From the NCBI GenBank assembly GCA_013287665.1, contig JABDDK010000011.1:1-43569 (forward strand): a DNA stretch of 43,569 bases. Direction: 5' to 3'. Numbering within the stretch: position 1 is the first letter of the stretch; each line of letters starts with the position of its first letter. Of this stretch, positions 7,167 through 20,557 are shown in pieces. The translations under genes and the position numbers were made by a program. The notes below the pieces were generated by a model. The model did not search any database, was not told the DNA's origin, and saw nothing but the letters and a program-made list of their open reading frames with translations. This stretch comes from Alphaproteobacteria bacterium. GTDB taxonomy: Bacteria; Pseudomonadota; Alphaproteobacteria; UBA9655.

Positions 7167-7628
7167 TCAATAAGTAACTGTTGCCGTGATTGTATCGGAA
7201 TAAGCCCCAACATGGGCTGTTGGTTGAGGTGCTGGCAATTGGCCATAGACTGTATACAAGCAAGGGGCGAGCAGACAGGTTGCAAGGTTCGCGCTTATGA
7301 CACCCGTCCCCCCCGTGCCATCACCCCAAATGGTTACCAAATTAGCTGCCGTATATAAATTATAATTCAAAGTATTCAACCCTGAAAGCATTTGGCGAGG
7401 GTTGAAACCTCCTCCTAATCCAGTACTTAAAGCTATTGAATAATTAACGATGGGAGATAAGGCATTACATTGGATCGATAATTGTGAATTGATATTTATT
7501 GGAGCTGGCTGAAATGGGTTGAAATTCCCAAAACCAATCGCACCAACTGCAACTGTGCACGAACCAAAACAAGGATGATTAAGAAGCGTTAGAGCTAATA
7601 ATCCTGACAGGAAGCACTTCTTATACAT
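7167..7628 (-). CDS. SCPU-domain (spore coat U) pilus subunit, last gene of the chaperone-usher operon
   Basis: This 153-aa exported protein has signal peptide MYKKCFLSGLLALTLLNHPCFG. One SCPU domain follows: CTVAVGAIGFGNFNP at the mature N terminus, the conserved NYNLYTAANLVTIWGDGTGGT, and the C-terminal strand SDTITATVTY. These are the hallmarks of archaic (Csu-like) pilins. Csu-type tip adhesins (CsuE) usually have two domains, whereas this one has only one. The start ATG lies 34 nt inside the usher gene in another frame, so expression is coupled to the usher. Confidence 0.87.
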   Translation of the reverse strand: MYKKCFLSGLLALTLLNHPCFGSCTVAVGAIGFGNFNPFQPAPININSQLSIQCNALSPIVNYSIALSTGLGGGFNPRQMLSGLNTLNYNLYTAANLVTIWGDGTGGTGVISANLATCLLAPCLYTVYGQLPAPQPTAHVGAYSDTITATVTY

Positions 7629-9916
7629 TGAATTTTTCCAAGGTGTGGAAGAACATTTTTTGTTTTCTTATAGCTAATATCACAAGAATACGTCTCATTT
7701 TTATATATAAATGTCAATGCATTTAGAGGCTCAAGGCCTGTCATATAGACCTCACCTTCATATCCAACGGGAAAAGTATCATTTTTCAATTTTATAGTTG
7801 TACCTGTAGGAACAGGCTCCCTGGAAGGCATCACTAGATTAGCAAGAGCGCTTGAAGAGGATTTTATTGGGAAATTTAAAACTAATCCGCTTCGATAAAA
7901 AGGTATAGCATTCATATCTAAAGTCTTGAGTTCAGCATCTAAAGGCAGATCCTGCAGTTCTAAACGGAGAGGGTTATTTTGGTAAGGGAGAAGATTAGGC
8001 ACAAATAAGTCACCATCTTGATCCGTATAACCAATGAGTTGATTTTGAGAATATACACTTACATCTTCGTACCCTGGAACTTTTATAACTGCAAAACTCT
8101 GCCCAACAATCCGGGACAGATACAAATTTTGATCCATAAAGGCCAAGGATCCTTTAGCTTGAATTTGCCCACCCGTTATACCTTCTTGATGGGCAACAGC
8201 ACCTGTTAACGTTCCAGTATCATTTTGTCCAGAAAGTGACGCCAGGTAAGTCTTATTTTGCCCATTAGCTGCATACAAGTTGTAACCATAGCCTGGCCCT
8301 GGGGGTAAGTTTCGTGCAACTTGAACGGTTCCTTGATTTGAATGCTTCTGGGCCATGCCCCCAACATTTGCCGTTGTATTTTCTGTCAAAGCATAGGTCA
8401 GAGTTAGAAATACTGCTTTGTTTTCTGGTCCTTCAACATTGATTTGAGCTGTAATGTTTAGGGATAATCCCAAACCCAGTGTTTGATTATAGCCAACATT
8501 AACGAAACTAAACGTTGGAGAGAAGCGATTTGCTTGACGCACATATGAAACGCCAAGAGAAGCGCCAGGAAATAATGGAAGTCCAACAAATGATGTGATT
8601 AAACTCTTTGGAGAAAAGCATGGATTAATCCCCAGTTGAACAAAGTTCCTTGAAAAAAATTGAACATTTGTGCCAAGGGTAACCCCTTTCAAGGATTGAC
8701 GTTGAAAACCTGTCGCTACAAGATATCCGGGTTTGTTATTTCTTTGACTTATGGCCCCAGCAAGATTTGCAACTCCAAGAGCATCAATAAGGTAGCTTCC
8801 TCCAAGCCCTCCGGTTTGTTGTTTCGCTAGCAATTCACCTCGCACTTCAGGCGTAAATACCTCTGACAAACCAATCTGATAGGTTCCTGTGAAAGCGGGT
8901 TTTCCATAATCATTACTCTGTCGTCCAAAATTCTTACGAATAAACCCCAAGGAATAGGCGAAATTTGTTAATCCAGGCTTTAAAAGTGTATTTGAAACGT
9001 AATATGGAACGGTTACCTGCTGTTGACGACCCAAAAAATCTGTCGTCACAAAGTTTATTGTACCACTACCTGTTGTAACGGGGATGTTATCAATTCTAAA
9101 GGGCCCTGCCATCGTATCAACTTTTTTTGTCCTCGCATCATTGATAAACAGATCTATCGACGAGGGCACCACTGCCTCTCCTCTCGCAGAGGGAAGAGGA
9201 AACGTAATAAAGCTGGGCTGAGTTCCAAAGTTCGTTTTATATTGGATCCCTCCAAATCCAACTGTATTACCCCACATTCCCGGCACCGTGTAGCTATCCC
9301 CTAAAATGAGACTTTGCATTTCAATAGGATTATCAACTTGCCAATAAGAATTGAGGCGCACAGCATTATTACAAGTTATGCCCGAATTAGTAAGATTCTG
9401 TGCCAGAAAATCAGTAAAACCTGTTCCGTAGCCATTAAAGAGACCAACGGCAAATACACCGCCAATCTGTTTTGAGTTTGAATCCTTTTGAGCAATTGTA
9501 TCATAGTCAACATAAGCTCCGGGAGATGGATCCATTGGAATAACAAAAGGATTACCTGTAAGGTTTAGTTCCTGCCCATAAAAATAAGGAACAGGTACAG
9601 TAAGGTTAACTATCATTTGTTTATTATCGATTTGATACTTCAAACCATTTACAGCATTTAGATTATAATAACTTTCATTACGATGTTTAATCACTTTACC
9701 ATCAATCGTTTTCAAACCCCATGTTCTCATGTCATGAGAACTGGCATATAAGGCTCCTTCATCATCTTGAATAAACAATCCAATCTCATCAAGAGACTGT
9801 TTGTTAATCTCAACAGCCAAAAATTGTTCTCTAAAATCTCCTTCCTCAAGTGCACTCACTTTACCGTTGAGCAAAAGAAAAAAAAGAAGGCTTTTCCCCA
9901 TTAATAAAACAAACAA
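7595..9916 (-). CDS. Outer-membrane fimbrial usher (archaic chaperone-usher type)
   Basis: About 773 aa, close to the normal 780-850 of ushers. The order of landmarks is a hydrophobic N-terminal segment ending KVSA, the N-terminal chaperone-binding domain starting FREQFLAVEINKQSL, a long barrel region rich in alternating Gly/Tyr (LILGDSYTVPGMWGNTVGFGG), a plug-like region with VPSSIDLFINDARTKKVDTMAGPFRIDNIPV, and C-terminal domains with GYTDQDGDLFVPNLLPYQNN. It assembles and secretes the pilus subunits. The start is uncertain: a TTG at 9916 and an in-frame ATG at 9899-9901 both lack a good ribosome site, and the frame stays open upstream into the chaperone gene, where it would add basic residues to the signal peptide. 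Confidence 0.9.
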   Translation of the reverse strand: MFVLLMGKSLLFFLLLNGKVSALEEGDFREQFLAVEINKQSLDEIGLFIQDDEGALYASSHDMRTWGLKTIDGKVIKHRNESYYNLNAVNGLKYQIDNKQMIVNLTVPVPYFYGQELNLTGNPFVIPMDPSPGAYVDYDTIAQKDSNSKQIGGVFAVGLFNGYGTGFTDFLAQNLTNSGITCNNAVRLNSYWQVDNPIEMQSLILGDSYTVPGMWGNTVGFGGIQYKTNFGTQPSFITFPLPSARGEAVVPSSIDLFINDARTKKVDTMAGPFRIDNIPVTTGSGTINFVTTDFLGRQQQVTVPYYVSNTLLKPGLTNFAYSLGFIRKNFGRQSNDYGKPAFTGTYQIGLSEVFTPEVRGELLAKQQTGGLGGSYLIDALGVANLAGAISQRNNKPGYLVATGFQRQSLKGVTLGTNVQFFSRNFVQLGINPCFSPKSLITSFVGLPLFPGASLGVSYVRQANRFSPTFSFVNVGYNQTLGLGLSLNITAQINVEGPENKAVFLTLTYALTENTTANVGGMAQKHSNQGTVQVARNLPPGPGYGYNLYAANGQNKTYLASLSGQNDTGTLTGAVAHQEGITGGQIQAKGSLAFMDQNLYLSRIVGQSFAVIKVPGYEDVSVYSQNQLIGYTDQDGDLFVPNLLPYQNNPLRLELQDLPLDAELKTLDMNAIPFYRSGLVLNFPIKSSSSALANLVMPSREPVPTGTTIKLKNDTFPVGYEGEVYMTGLEPLNALTFIYKNETYSCDISYKKTKNVLPHLGKIQCIRSASCQDY

Positions 9917-9965
9917 TTTCCGTAGGAAGATCGAAGCAAGGCCGAAGTAGAAATCCTGGAGTGAC

Positions 9966-10724
9966 TTAAAGCTGAATAGTCTCAGAAAATTCTCCGTTGT
10001 TCGTTACAATAGTCACTATAACGTTGTTGCATTTAATCGTTTGTGGAAGTTGCAGAAGCCATTCCTTCGTTTGAGTCGGTAAAAGATAGTTATAGATCGT
10101 TTGATCAACCAATGGTTTTGCCTCTTTGTTTTCTTTTATTTTTACTTTATTAATAATAATATAACTATCTCCAGAGTTTTGAACTCTAACCTTAAGTTCT
10201 TGAGAACCTGTTCGACTCGCAGCTACAGCTAATTTCTGTTCACACGGGGAGAGTGACTCAACAAGGAGAGGAATACTAATCTCAAGAAGAGTTTGAACCC
10301 CCAAGTTGAGGGTGGGTTTAGCCTGTGGAACCTCTCGAACAAATACGCGATACGTCTCTCCTTTTTGAGAGTCTCTAGAAGAAAGGATCCCAACCCTTAC
10401 AAGCTGAGTATCATTAGGATTAATCGTTACAATGGGAGGCGTAATTAATATTTCTTTCGTGTTGTCGTAAATTTCTTTACCAAAAGAATGAGACCATTTA
10501 ACGGCATTCAGTTGGACCACAATGGCTTCTAAGGAATTATTTTTAATTTCAAGGGAGGTAATCTTTTGATTTTTTAATATTTCCAAACGGATTGGATTCA
10601 CTTCAATTGAAGAAGCAAAACCATAGGAATAAAAAAGGACAACAATAATAAAAGAGATGATCCCATGCTTTAGAGATTTTGCCAAATGAACGAAAGCATT
10701 CATATTATTGATTTTAGAGTCCAC
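9966..10724 (-). CDS. Periplasmic pilus chaperone (PapD-like, archaic class)
   Basis: This 252-aa protein has a hydrophobic segment (about residues 21-38, ending YSYGFASS) that serves as a signal peptide. Two Ig-like domains follow. The first carries the subunit-binding strand region ILITPPIVTINPNDTQLVRVG and ETYRVFVREVP, both diagnostic of fimbrial chaperones. The second ends FSETIQL. It would cap SCPU subunits and pass them to the usher. I kept the GTG start at 10724 because AAAGGG lies 6 nt upstream; an internal ATG at 10703 would give a shorter signal peptide but has no ribosome site. The gap to the usher is about 49 nt. Confidence 0.9.
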   Translation of the reverse strand: MDSKINNMNAFVHLAKSLKHGIISFIIVVLFYSYGFASSIEVNPIRLEILKNQKITSLEIKNNSLEAIVVQLNAVKWSHSFGKEIYDNTKEILITPPIVTINPNDTQLVRVGILSSRDSQKGETYRVFVREVPQAKPTLNLGVQTLLEISIPLLVESLSPCEQKLAVAASRTGSQELKVRVQNSGDSYIIINKVKIKENKEAKPLVDQTIYNYLLPTQTKEWLLQLPQTIKCNNVIVTIVTNNGEFSETIQL

Positions 10725-10808
10725 ATTGATCCCTTTCTTGTTTTTATGGATTCAAGCGAATAAAATTTACCTTATTCTAAGTTGCGTTCTTTTTGAAGAG
10801 TTAGATTC

Positions 10809-11315
10809 TTAAAATGTAACTGTAACAGTAATCGTGTCGGTATAATCGTTGGCGGGATGCGTTGTCGCCTGAGGACCAATAATTCTACCGTAGGCTGTCT
10901 TGACTTGAGCTAAGCCCGTCCCTGTATCATTGATTGTTTGCGTCGCGCCTGTTCCATCCCCCCACACTGTTGCGTAGGTATTGGCAGTATATATATTATA
11001 ATTCAAAGGAGTGCCTGGCGCCGTGGCAGAAGTCATTTGTCTGTTGACGAACGTACCAGAACCAGTACTTAAGCCGGCTGACCAAGCCGTTCCATTTGAG
11101 CATGTCACCGTAATTGAGTTTGATGCCATTACATCAGGACCGAACGGGCTAAAAGCTCCAAATGTGAGAGGTGTTGCAACCACAGAACAAGCAGCAGTTA
11201 CGTTTGCTGTAACGTTAAATGTTGTTGTGGCAGTGGAAGCACTGCAATCCTGCTGAGCCACAAGCAAGTTACAAAGAACTAGCCCAAGAGAGAGGATATA
11301 TATTTTCGTCTTCAT
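10809..11315 (-). CDS. SCPU-domain major pilus subunit, first gene of the chaperone-usher operon
   Basis: This 168-aa exported protein has signal peptide MKTKIYILSLGLVLCNLLVA, then a Thr-rich N terminus (TATTTFNVTANVTAAC) that could be the donor strand. The SCPU domain carries TPLTFGAFSPFGPD, LNYNIYTANTYATVWGDGTG and the final strand YTDTITVTVTF. Position first in the operon and single-domain size match CsuA/B-like major subunits. AGGGAG precedes the ATG. The AT-rich 104-nt gap upstream (11316-11419) presumably holds the operon promoter. The DNA is richer in GC than the gap, and the gene shares clear family identity with the second SCPU gene at 7167. Confidence 0.9.
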   Translation of the reverse strand: MKTKIYILSLGLVLCNLLVAQQDCSASTATTTFNVTANVTAACSVVATPLTFGAFSPFGPDVMASNSITVTCSNGTAWSAGLSTGSGTFVNRQMTSATAPGTPLNYNIYTANTYATVWGDGTGATQTINDTGTGLAQVKTAYGRIIGPQATTHPANDYTDTITVTVTF

Positions 11316-11419: not shown

Positions 11420-13357
11420 TCACCCAATTTTCGCCATATGCTGATCCAAGTTCACGCCATCTCCTTGTTTCACATATATTTTTTCTATAACCCCATCCAC
11501 TTCAGCCCGAATGATATTCTCCATCTTCATCGCTTCAATTGTAGCGACAGGTTGGCCAGCTTTGATGGGGTCCCCTTCTTTGACAAATACCTCAACAACA
11601 AGGCCTGTCATGGGAGATTGAACAATACGAGACATATCCGCTTTTTGTTTGAGTGGCATATGCAAGTAAAGATCAGCCACATGTGCTTCCAATACCTGCG
11701 TTAAAGCTGCATATCCGTTCCAAGAAAGCTTGTTAAGAACACCATGGGGGTCGAGTTGTATCGTCACGGAATGGCCATTAAACACCCCTTCAAAGAGAGC
11801 CTCTCCTGATAACCAACTCGTTTCTATAACGAGACTTTCCGCGGCCAAAACCTCATATCTCTCCCCTTCACCCCTGACTGTCATGGGATAACTCTTACGA
11901 TCGATAAGAACGGTAACCTCTGCCTGACTCAGTCCTTTTTGGATGACATGCATAACTGCCGCAGCCCCAACAGCAATGATGGGATTCTCTGGAACTGATG
12001 GTGAAAATCCAATGGGAAATTCAAGGTCAAGCGTTGCCGTATCGAAAGTGCTCTTTCTGAAGTGAGGCGAATTAACGAGGGCTGCAAGGAAATTAATATT
12101 GGTTTCAATTCCTCTTATATAATAGTGATCTAAACCAGCTAAAAGACTCTCAACAGCCACCTTTCGGTCAGTCTCATGGACAATGAGTTTTGAAATCATA
12201 GGATCATAATAGGGGGTAATCGTATCGCCCTCCTCAACCCCACTATCCACCCGAAGCTTACCCTCAGTTTCAAGGGGGGGCAGGTAAGTGCTCAGTCGTC
12301 CTATTGAGGGCAAAAAGCCCCGTGACGAATCTTCAGCATAAATGCGAGCTTCAATTGCATGACCGGAAAACTGCACGTCGGATTGCTTCATGCGTAGAGG
12401 TTCACCGGCTGAAATGCGCACCATTTCTTCCACGAGATCAAGCTTCGTCACCATCTCTGTCGTCGGATGCTCAACTTGAAGGCGGGTGTTCATCTCTAAA
12501 AAATAGAAGTTTCTTGTCTGATCGACAACGAACTCAACCGTACCTGCTGACGAATACTCCACAGCCTTCGCCAGACGAATGGCAGCTGAGGTCATGGACT
12601 CACGTAGTCCCTCAGTCACAAAGGGGCTGGGAGACTCCTCTATGACCTTCTGATGACGTCTTTGGAGGGAACATTCCCTCTCTCCCAAATGAATACAATT
12701 CCCATGAGTATCAGCAAGGATTTGGATTTCAATATGCCGGGCTGATTCGATATACTTTTCAAGGAAAACCCGTCCATCCCCAAAGCTTGCCTCTGCCTCA
12801 TGGATAGCCCCTTTCAAGCCTTCCTCTAGGTGAATCTTCTCTCGAATGATGCGCATTCCTTTACCGCCACCTCCCGCAGCCGCTTTCACCATTAAGGGAA
12901 AACCGATGGAATGGGCCACTTTTTGAGCTTCGTTTATATCACCCAGTGGCTCATCCGTTCCTGGAATACAGGGAACACCAGCATCTCTTGCAAGCCTTTT
13001 AGCCTCAAGCTTATCCCCCATCAGAGCAATCGCTTTTGCTGGAGGTCCGATGAAGACCAACCCTTCTTTCTTTACTGCTTCAGCAAATCCCGCGTTTTCA
13101 GAAAGAAAACCATAGCCAGGATGAATGGCTTCAGCGCCACTTTGCTTTGCTGCCTTCAAAATAGCGGGACTATTCAGGTAACTCTCAATTGCAGGCGCAT
13201 TCCCTATAAGATAAGCCTCCTCAGCCATCCTGACAGCGAGCGAGTCTTCATCCGCACTCGAATACACAACGACGGACCCAATTCCCATGCGGTTTAAGGT
13301 CTGAATAATTCGGCAAGCAATTTCACCGCGATTTGCAATCAGAACCTTTTTAAACAC
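11420..13357 (-). CDS. pccA: Propionyl/acetyl-CoA carboxylase alpha subunit (biotin carboxylase + BCCP)
   Basis: This 645-aa cytosolic enzyme subunit carboxylates biotin with ATP and bicarbonate and carries the biotin on its C-terminal arm. The biotin carboxylase domain (about 1-445) shows RGEIACRIIQTLNRMG, the ATP-grasp loop KAAAGGGGKGMRII, and LEMNTRLQVEHPTTEMVT. A linker/BT-like region follows. The C-terminal biotinyl domain has EAMKMEN with Lys611 as the biotin site. The presence of the middle domain and pccB beside it argue for propionyl-CoA rather than the separate AccB/AccC system. The start is GTG with a weak ribosome site, 13 nt after the 2TM gene, suggesting coupled translation in a pccB-2TM-pccA operon. 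Confidence 0.92.
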   Translation of the reverse strand: MFKKVLIANRGEIACRIIQTLNRMGIGSVVVYSSADEDSLAVRMAEEAYLIGNAPAIESYLNSPAILKAAKQSGAEAIHPGYGFLSENAGFAEAVKKEGLVFIGPPAKAIALMGDKLEAKRLARDAGVPCIPGTDEPLGDINEAQKVAHSIGFPLMVKAAAGGGGKGMRIIREKIHLEEGLKGAIHEAEASFGDGRVFLEKYIESARHIEIQILADTHGNCIHLGERECSLQRRHQKVIEESPSPFVTEGLRESMTSAAIRLAKAVEYSSAGTVEFVVDQTRNFYFLEMNTRLQVEHPTTEMVTKLDLVEEMVRISAGEPLRMKQSDVQFSGHAIEARIYAEDSSRGFLPSIGRLSTYLPPLETEGKLRVDSGVEEGDTITPYYDPMISKLIVHETDRKVAVESLLAGLDHYYIRGIETNINFLAALVNSPHFRKSTFDTATLDLEFPIGFSPSVPENPIIAVGAAAVMHVIQKGLSQAEVTVLIDRKSYPMTVRGEGERYEVLAAESLVIETSWLSGEALFEGVFNGHSVTIQLDPHGVLNKLSWNGYAALTQVLEAHVADLYLHMPLKQKADMSRIVQSPMTGLVVEVFVKEGDPIKAGQPVATIEAMKMENIIRAEVDGVIEKIYVKQGDGVNLDQHMAKIG

Positions 13358-18825: not shown

Positions 18826-18861
18826 CACCCCTTGCCACCCCAGAGGTTTCTGATTACTATC

Positions 18862-19062
18862 CCCTTGCTAAAGGTGCTTTTTAAGTTAAAAGGGAACACA
18901 ATCTCAAACCTATGAGAAACTGTGGCTGTACCCGCAACTGTAAAACGTGAGTTTTGAGCAAAATACCACTGACCGCTAGGTTGGGAAGGTTGCTCAAAAT
19001 GGTGAACGTTAGCCAGGAAACCTGCCTTTAGAGTCATCACTACGTTTGGCGGGCCAAACAAA
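18862..19062 (+). ncRNA. Cobalamin (B12) riboswitch
   Basis: The conserved parts of the cobalamin aptamer occur in order: AAAGGTGC (18870-18877), AAAAGGGAA (18888-18896), GCTG-ACCCGCAACTGTAA around 18925-18943, CCACTG then GGGAAGG (18967-18989), and the B12 box AGCCAGGAAACCTGCC (19011-19026). A hairpin GTTTGG-CGGG-CCAAAC (19044-19059) follows. Its loop CGGG could pair with CCCG at 18931-18934, as expected for the loop-loop contact of this class. GTCATC-ac-TACG (19033-19044) can instead pair with CGTAGATGAC (19079-19088), a possible alternate platform before the strong AAGGAGG site. It directly precedes the biotinyl-domain gene and should repress it when B12 is bound. Confidence 0.93.
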
Positions 19063-19120
19063 CGGAAGCGAAAAGTCTCGTAGATGACGAATAATAATAA
19101 AGCACGTCAAAGGAGGCTAC

Positions 19121-20557
19121 ATGCACAGTAAAATACTAACCCATTCAATCTTTTTGAAACCTAAGTTTCTTCATACATTTTTTGCTTTATCACTTGGGAC
19201 TTATTATGTCATAGCCCATCCACCCCTTATGTTCAGATTAGCTTTTCATTTCTCCCGTCCCCATCTTATTCTTCAAAATGTGGAAAGCCAAAATCTTCAA
19301 TCACCGCAGAATTATATGTCACCTCTTAAGTTTAGCTCTCATTCATCAAGTTCAGAACAAGTTTTAAAAAGAGCTTTTGTTAACGAAGCAAACGTTTTAA
19401 AAAAGAATTCTTTTCTTCCCCTAGAAACGATCCAAGTTAAACCAGAGGTCCTCATAACGAGTCACAGAACAAAAGCCGTTCTTCAATCTACACCTGTTGA
19501 CCTCTTTGTTATTCTGAAAGCTGCAGAGCCTCTTGTACAAGCCGTTCCTGTCATTGATATTATGAGCGTTCCCTCGTCAGTCGTTCCTTATGACCGCATT
19601 GTTGCAGTCCATCAGGCAGTGACTGTACCTTCCGAAGTTATGGCCCCTCCTCAGGCGGAAGTTCATGCTCCTGTTCAACAAGTAACCGTAGCACCTGTAG
19701 CAATGGTTGATCCTGTCGTTGAAGGTGCACCTCCTCTCGAGCAAGTCGTTCCAGTTGAACCTATTGTAGTTGTTCAACAAGAAATGGCTCGTGTTATCGT
19801 TAATAATCCCGCCCAAAACCCTATACCTATCACTGCCGTTTTCCCAGGCAGAATCGAGCAGATCTCTATTAAGGAAGGGGATAGGATTACCAGAGGACAA
19901 CCCATCTATACTATAATGGCCATGAAGATGGAAAACATTATCAACGCTGATGTTGATGGGATTGTTAGAAGGATTCTTATAAATCGTGGAGAGGACGTTA
20001 ATATGGGTCAACCTTTGGCCGAGGTTGAGCCCATTCCTGCAACACCCCTTCAACTCCCTGCAATCAACATTGTACCTGTTGTGCCACAAACAGAAACACT
20101 TCCACTCCAAAACACAATAACACCTGCCCCTAGCGTCACTATAAAAGAACCTGCTCTTGCAAGATTAGGTCAAACCATTGAGCCGATGAATCCCATTCTT
20201 ATGCAATTCCTGGACCTTTTAGAACCCAATAGTGCCTATTCTCAAGATGAAAATGAAATAAGGAAAGCGCTTAGAAGAACACTTCTTTCATCCCAATATC
20301 GAAATCATGTAAAAGAAGATTGGGTTACGAGCGATACAACCGAATGGATATTGAGAAGAAAGAACTTTTTCCGCGATTTTTGTAACAATATTAATGAGGC
20401 TGCACTTTCATTTAAAATCTTTAGACATGATTTGCAAAAATTATATTACACTGAAGAGGCTGACTATCACTTGAATATACTACCCAATGAGATTGTAGGA
20501 AGAGGAGGCCTGACATTATACAGGGAAGAGGAAACCTGCATGGGGGAGGGCATTTAA
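19121..20557 (+). CDS. Membrane-anchored biotinyl-domain protein under B12 riboswitch control
   Basis: This 478-aa protein is not one I recognise as a whole. Residues 1-16 are basic and 17-32 hydrophobic (FLHTFFALSLGTYYVIA), giving a signal anchor or signal peptide. Residues about 135-235 are a Val/Pro-rich low-complexity stretch. Residues about 237-302 form a complete biotinyl/lipoyl domain: FPGRIEQISIKEGDRITRGQ, then AMKMEN with Lys269 as the predicted biotin site, then the ADVDGIVRRILINRGEDVN half. A Pro-rich linker (303-345) and an unrecognised charged C-terminal domain (346-478) follow. The domain strongly resembles that of PccA, 6 kb away. The N-anchor/Pro-rich/C-domain layout recalls TonB. 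AAGGAGG lies 4 nt upstream of the ATG. Confidence 0.8.
   Translation: MHSKILTHSIFLKPKFLHTFFALSLGTYYVIAHPPLMFRLAFHFSRPHLILQNVESQNLQSPQNYMSPLKFSSHSSSSEQVLKRAFVNEANVLKKNSFLPLETIQVKPEVLITSHRTKAVLQSTPVDLFVILKAAEPLVQAVPVIDIMSVPSSVVPYDRIVAVHQAVTVPSEVMAPPQAEVHAPVQQVTVAPVAMVDPVVEGAPPLEQVVPVEPIVVVQQEMARVIVNNPAQNPIPITAVFPGRIEQISIKEGDRITRGQPIYTIMAMKMENIINADVDGIVRRILINRGEDVNMGQPLAEVEPIPATPLQLPAINIVPVVPQTETLPLQNTITPAPSVTIKEPALARLGQTIEPMNPILMQFLDLLEPNSAYSQDENEIRKALRRTLLSSQYRNHVKEDWVTSDTTEWILRRKNFFRDFCNNINEAALSFKIFRHDLQKLYYTEEADYHLNILPNEIVGRGGLTLYREEETCMGEGI

Follow-up and report, generated by a model that had tools for sequence, protein, structure and literature searches.

A cobalamin riboswitch in front of a small alphaproteobacterial protein family, one member of which carries a biotinyl domain

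Riboswitch leader and layout of the 478-residue protein

The window, a stretch of 43,569 nucleotides from an alphaproteobacterial genome (G000; 74 contigs, 1.58 Mb, 84% complete), carries a cobalamin riboswitch aptamer at positions 18855-19043 of the forward strand. The aptamer matches the covariance model RF00174 over its full length (model positions 1-189 of 189) at 96.7 bits, with a gathering score of 31.5 and an E-value of 5e-23, and is the one RF00174 match in the genome. Its B12 box is AGCCAGGAAACCTGCC. A full cobalamin aptamer with a B12 box, directly followed by a 478-residue gene, had been proposed from the letters alone, with the covariance model named as a check; both the score and the gene arrangement bear this out. 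The gene (19121-20557, forward strand) begins with an ATG at 19121, 77 nt beyond the end of the aptamer, and stops at 20557; an SD-like GGAGG (19112-19116, forward strand) lies 4 nt 5' of the ATG. We refer to the encoded protein as P0001.

By inspection, a hairpin just 3' of the end of the Rfam model (19043-19064, forward strand; stem CGTTTG/CAAACG, loop GCGGG) corresponds to P13, and its loop L13 (19049-19053) is complementary to L5 of the aptamer (CCCGC, 18931-18935), making up the kissing loop. The P13 stem (CGUUUG/CAAACG) and L13 are identical in the window and in the leaders of two related genes, from genomes G001 and G008, described below; L5 is CCCGC in all three, and in each the expression platform precedes the SD. 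The candidate switching segment (19033-19088, forward strand) was delimited from alternative folds, by inspection and MFE prediction. Here GTCATC (19033-19038) is able to pair with GATGAC (19083-19088), as are GUCAUC 5' of P13 and GAUGRC 3' of P13 in all three leaders. Alternatively, the conserved CTCGTAGATGRC of the window leader could pair towards the SD, and in the window and G008 leaders a conserved CUCGUAGAUGRC can pair with the SD side. Of the five bases of the SD-like GGAGG, four are mostly paired in the predicted ligand-free ensemble. Because the btuB leaders of the order show, by eye, a comparable layout (GUCAYC, P13, GGUGRY), we expect by analogy that the window gene would be turned down by B12, in the same sense as expected for btuB leaders; taken by themselves, the folding predictions leave room for an ON switch as well.

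P0001 is arranged as a probable export segment, a Pro/Val-rich spacer, a biotinyl domain, a further spacer and a C-terminal family domain, with the Pro/Val-rich stretches on both sides of the biotinyl domain that had been noted before. The N-terminal segment (residues 3-40; 19127-19240, forward strand) was delimited by local alignment with the G008 copy: over about the first 40 residues the two score 75, a value reached by none of 300 shuffles (mean 25.8, sd 5.5). The N-terminus of the G001 protein gave no significant alignment with either. A single N-terminal hydrophobic segment, taken in the sequence-only reading as a membrane anchor, is present in P0001 as claimed; it is weak, and the highest-scoring 19-residue Kyte-Doolittle windows fall at residues 127-147 instead. 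Hydrophobicity at the N-terminus is clearer in the relatives, with values of 1.62 in G008 and 1.92 in G001 on the same scale. Since the segment in P0001 is weak, the protein may be membrane-anchored or, equally possibly, carry a cleaved signal peptide. By eye, there is no N-terminal cysteine that could serve a lipobox.

The biotinyl domain occupies residues 237-303 (19829-20029, forward strand). Pfam Biotin_lipoyl matches residues 241-301 at 57.9 bits, the models HlyD_3 and Biotin_lipoyl_2 likewise match the domain, and the lysine of the AMKME motif is residue 269 (codon 19925-19927), so that the domain is complete, as first described. Three residues before Lys269 stands a methionine; among 33 other biotinyl domains compared, 32 have Glu or Asp at this position and one has Met. 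An acidic residue at -3 to the biotinyl lysine is important, and the meaning of a methionine there comes from mutants of E. coli BCCP. With Met in place of the usual Glu or Asp, biotinylation of P0001 cannot be assumed; a literature search on the -3 glutamate found nothing.

By tblastn, the nearest sequences are the PccA-type biotinyl domains of the genus, at 40-50% identity (50% for G006, 48% for the window's own, the latter over 60 residues), and a tree of 34 rows leaves the placement of the P0001 domain open. The window's own PccA-type domain belongs to a carboxylase alpha subunit encoded on the reverse strand (11420-13357), outside the riboswitch-gene unit. The same strand carries a chaperone-usher fimbrial cluster (7167-11315), comprising an usher with PapC_C (7595-9916), a PapD-type chaperone (9966-10724) and two small proteins that by eye resemble secreted subunits (7167-7628 and 10809-11315). 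A Woesearchaeota-labelled contig (L032:6649-7062) encodes a biotinyl-domain protein with an identical IMAMKMEN motif. It was the one match of the contig search and extends over the biotinyl domain only; the motif itself served as the search pattern, and the likeness is therefore partly a product of selection.

A family defined by its C-terminal domain

A search with full-length P0001 matched 52 of 59 relatives, nearly all in the biotinyl region only, and gave two further matches to the C-terminal domain (residues 334-478; 20120-20554, forward strand), both from the same genus. With the G001 protein as query, three of the 15 genus genomes were found: G001 itself, G008 (E = 7e-26) and the window (E = 9.3e-7). 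A three-row profile of the C-terminal domain recovered three of 17 order genomes, all of one genus, and the same three among 385 sampled genomes of the class; three further profile matches in G009 and G002, at E-values of 0.07-0.28, were treated as chance. Among 398 sampled genomes of the phylum, the domain returned the window's own copy and one weak match of 31 positions (E = 0.0047). The three copies share 31-41% identity in this domain, the window's being the most diverged (31% to G001, with indels).

The C-terminal domains of the three copies matched nothing in Pfam, and NCBIfam gave no match in the C-terminal region. The best hits were at E = 0.38 among PDB sequences (mS37, taken as chance) and at E = 0.16 in PHROGs, which is not meaningful. 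None of 53 pattern stretches from IMG/VR held a relative of the domain, and a plasmid search with the G001 protein found none either.

Between the N-terminus and the conserved C-terminal domain the proteins differ widely, and their lengths range from 192 residues in G001 through 478 in the window to 505 in G008. The window has a biotinyl domain in this middle part and G008 has three tandem 231-nt units, with almost nothing there in G001. The G008 units (L033:7892-8584) lie head to tail and are 100, 80 and 73% identical to the reference copy; a match to RSS_P20 in this spacer (E = 0.027) stays below the Pfam cut-off. We considered whether the repeats are a decayed biotinyl domain. With normal gap costs this is unsupported, 77 of 300 shuffles reaching the score, and with permissive gaps the resemblance is weak (8 of 300).

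Pfam and NCBIfam searches found no biotinyl domain in either the G001 or the G008 protein. Judged from these sequences, the domain was therefore either gained in the lineage of the window or lost in both others. Both relatives keep the riboswitch and the C-terminal domain without it, so that the conserved unit, as the comparison suggests, consists of the switch and a protein in which a segment probably used for export is followed by a Pro-rich spacer of variable make-up and a C-terminal domain not described before. On this evidence the link to B12 is the real finding, and the biotinyl domain appears as an add-on of the window's copy.

This comparison bears directly on the proposal that P0001, together with the window's pccB-type subunit, acts as a biotin carboxyl carrier in a B12-sparing route close to propionate metabolism. 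A complete biotinyl domain with AMKME, closest to the PccA-type domains of the genus, and the presence of pccA-, pccB- and accA-type genes within 8 kb speak for it. Against it, the genome already holds a pccA-type gene with a biotinyl domain of its own, the methionine at -3 is shared with one of the 33 other domains compared, and the window gene stands in no operon with a carboxylase gene, being convergent to accA. Since neither relative shows a biotinyl match, a carboxyl carrier is ruled out as the family function, and the earlier view that centred on the biotinyl domain is not supported; for the window protein itself we regard the role as highly improbable. Most likely, whether or not it is biotinylated, the window's biotinyl domain would act as a contact element or a spacer with a fold of its own rather than as a working carboxyl carrier.

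An independent RF00174 search of the relatives, run with Infernal's stricter filters, placed riboswitches directly 5' of both genes (G008:C84:7210-7401 and G001:C1:80046-80243). The gaps from aptamer to start codon are 77 nt in the window, 84 nt in G008 and 86 nt in G001. The homologue search suggested in the sequence-only reading thus returned a cobalamin riboswitch before each of the three copies found. In a tree of 23 aptamers, the three form one clade with a local support of 0.999; they are 70-73% identical among themselves and at most 61% identical to any other.

The three loci have no common neighbours that we could see, the G008 contig ending soon after the gene, and homologues of btuBFCD, which had been proposed as possible companions, were not seen beside any of the three genes. 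Each leader sits between unrelated genes, as would be expected had a rearrangement placed a leader copy before an unrelated gene whose function has nothing to do with B12. All three members, at 31-41% C-terminal identity, nevertheless keep a related leader with its aptamer, kissing loop and platform, and without selection a leader should have decayed across such divergence; we consider such hitch-hiking improbable. Chance adjacency and decay of the riboswitch are rejected on the same ground, namely related and conserved leaders in three of three cases. A species tree built from pccA, covering 12 genomes of the genus plus two outgroups but not G004, G007 and G011, places the three carriers in one half of the genus (seven species, support 83/97). 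The tree does not fix their order, so vertical loss and transfer of the family gene cannot be told apart from these sequences.

Cobalamin supply and riboswitch targets in the order

To place the family in context, the other cobalamin riboswitches of the order were assigned to their targets. Across 17 order genomes there are 23 RF00174 matches, none of them in G007, and all 23 are accounted for: 13 precede a BtuB homologue, seven precede nrdA and three precede the C-terminal-domain family. The one BtuB copy tested, from G001, has the vitamin B12 receptor TIGR01779 as its best model, at 175 bits and under the cut-off of 599.7. A TonB_C gene adjoins 12 of the 13 riboswitch-led btuB genes, the thirteenth (G003) lying at a contig end; the order has 14 TonB_C matches in all, and the two that are not beside a riboswitch-led btuB are both in G005:C52. 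The seven riboswitch-led nrdA genes (L073, L074, L078, L079, L082, L084 and L086), from seven genus genomes, were all confirmed by Pfam and represent B12 control of an apparently B12-independent ribonucleotide reductase, NrdB and the reductase class having been examined in one of these loci (G002). The 20 targets outside the family are in keeping with B12 uptake or with an isozyme that apparently needs no B12.

The riboswitch-led loci hold further genes. The third gene of the btuB loci encodes an LHH-type HNH nuclease-like protein, which follows the TonB-like gene at a distance of about 130-155 nt. Among the nine of 13 btuB loci tested, PF14411 matched at E <= 0.01 in seven (L071:6292-7386 on the reverse strand, L072, L077, L080, L081, L083 and L085), and six of the nine lie above the Pfam cut-off. 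Several of these proteins have a hydrophobic N-terminus by eye, and L088, one of the two loci without a PF14411 match, shows an IHHLTQ motif by eye. In G002, the gene that follows the riboswitch-led nrdAB (L073:12340-13851, forward strand) codes for a protein that is hydrophobic at its N-terminus and matches Fic (PF02661, 26.8 bits; cut-off 24).

The remaining context searches covered 16 order genomes, G011 (63% complete) being left out. Among these, searches of G000, G007 and G008 gave neither a BtuB nor a receptor Plug domain (G000 being 84% and G008 99% complete), and TonB_C was not found in G000, G003, G007 and G008. Methylmalonyl-CoA mutase is present in 13 of the 16, including all three carriers of the family, and was not found in G004, G007 and G013. 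Two of the 13 mutase-bearing genomes, G000 and G008, are without a detected BtuB, and both carry the family; by our own arithmetic such a coincidence arises in three of 78 ways (about 0.04), a figure that depends on two genomes, one of them 84% complete. In both, the family gene is the only target of a cobalamin riboswitch that was found. G001 has the family gene and, elsewhere, a separate riboswitch-led btuB-tonB locus, with a Plug receptor present. FecCD permease was found in none of the 16 genomes, though 13 carry a BtuB homologue and the control was positive in 13 of 14 named genomes.

These distributions weigh heavily on the earlier suggestion that P0001 is a TonB-like component, transducing energy for B12 uptake or serving it as an adaptor. 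A short N-terminal hydrophobic segment, a Pro-rich spacer, a C-terminal domain and the cobalamin riboswitch would suit such a role. None of the three family proteins has a TonB_C match, though, and G000 and G008, two of the three carriers, show neither TonB_C nor a Plug-domain receptor to energise. The third, G001, has its own btuB-tonB, and apart from the two in G005:C52, all of the order's 14 TonB_C matches adjoin a riboswitch-led btuB. A TonB-like transducer is strongly disfavored, and we give it very little credence.

Proposed function and comparison with known systems

Our tentative preference, held at somewhat less than even confidence, is that a dedicated cobalamin riboswitch governs a small protein family, specific to this lineage, whose members are probably located in the cell envelope and serve B12 supply. 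When B12 is scarce, the leader would let the family gene be translated, and the N-terminal segment would export or anchor the protein. Outside the inner membrane, the C-terminal domain would putatively capture, store or pass on cobamides, or aid another part of uptake. B12 would then turn the gene down, as expected for btuB leaders, and the window's biotinyl domain would be a lineage-specific module accommodated in a tolerant spacer. In this general sense, the earlier "component for B12 uptake" is still our best guess for the family protein. The conserved pairing with a riboswitch of one aptamer clade, the detection of no other riboswitch target in the two mutase-bearing genomes without a detected BtuB, and the BtuH precedent described below speak for the B12-supply reading. 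The absence of common neighbours at the three loci, the failure to find a FecCD permease as a possible partner in any of the 16 genomes, the strong divergence of the window's C-terminal domain and the lack of a significant alignment for the G001 N-terminus count against it.

A narrower version is rather doubtful. It would make the family an undescribed B12-acquisition protein that replaces BtuB-TonB in a B12-dependent lineage, the window's copy having additionally captured a carboxylase-type biotinyl domain. Because G001 has both systems, the family gene does not strictly replace BtuB-TonB.

A secreted or surface effector made under B12 scarcity, such as an enzyme or antagonist whose C-terminal domain targets another cell or host material, explains the data nearly as well as the B12-supply reading, since genes resembling nucleases and Fic occur at further riboswitch-linked loci of the genus. 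The patchy, genus-restricted domain, the variable spacer and the tandem repeats of G008 all suit an effector, as do the LHH-type third genes of seven of the nine btuB loci tested, several with a hydrophobic N-terminus, and the Fic match after nrdAB in G002. Against this, Pfam, NCBIfam and PHROGs gave no toxin or enzyme family for the C-terminal domain, and in G000 and G008, genomes with a B12 enzyme, no B12-regulated gene besides the effector would be known. On balance we rate the effector as possible, if on the unlikely side.

Should the narrower, replacement version be true, the species of the window would have an exported, possibly biotinylated and B12-regulated protein. A riboswitch kept in front of an undescribed family is a strong and testable pointer to function, here B12, and the family gene would be a direct candidate for B12 passage across the outer membrane in genomes where BtuB and TonB were not found and the B12 enzyme is kept. 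PMC3418276 reports that secreted proteins carrying a BCCP87 fusion receive biotin in the cytosol of E. coli and are then exported by Sec, and an exported, biotinylated P0001 is accordingly conceivable. A biotinyl domain in a probably exported protein would offer a natural test of whether biotinylation and export coexist, to set beside the engineered fusions in that paper. None of the papers listed by our literature search joined "cobalamin riboswitch" with a biotinyl-domain term.

Set against known systems, the biotinyl domain of P0001 resembles the biotin carboxyl carrier domain of PccA in its 40-50% identity to the domains of the genus and its AMKME lysine. It differs in being embedded in the Pro/Val-rich spacer of a probably exported protein, in having Met for Glu at -3 and in not being found in the relatives. 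A biotinyl/lipoyl-type fold (barrel-sandwich) in periplasmic proteins is known from the HlyD/RND periplasmic adaptors; unlike in these, the P0001 domain is uninterrupted and keeps the modification lysine, and no other adaptor domain was matched. With TonB, P0001 shares the layout of a hydrophobic N-terminus, a Pro-rich spacer and a C-terminal domain, whereas the family is without TonB_C and occurs where no TonB-dependent receptor was found (G000 and G008). The leader itself is a cobalamin riboswitch of the RF00174 type, with a full aptamer, a B12 box, L5-L13 complementarity and a nearby SD; what differs is its target, an undescribed family, where the other 20 in the order precede btuB or nrdA.

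Among known systems, BtuH of Bacteroides comes nearest as a working analogue. BtuH is membrane-associated, is encoded in transport loci that bear cobamide riboswitches and hold btuBFCD homologues, and is required for efficient transport; its N-terminal half is modular, and a globular B12-binding domain without known structural homologues forms its C-terminal part (PMC8941943). We claim no sequence relation between the two; P0001 is without a lipobox cysteine, and no btuBFCD homologues were seen beside the family genes. What they share is a cobalamin riboswitch, found before all three family copies, and by this analogy the family may be BtuH-like in its logic, with a putative role in handling B12.
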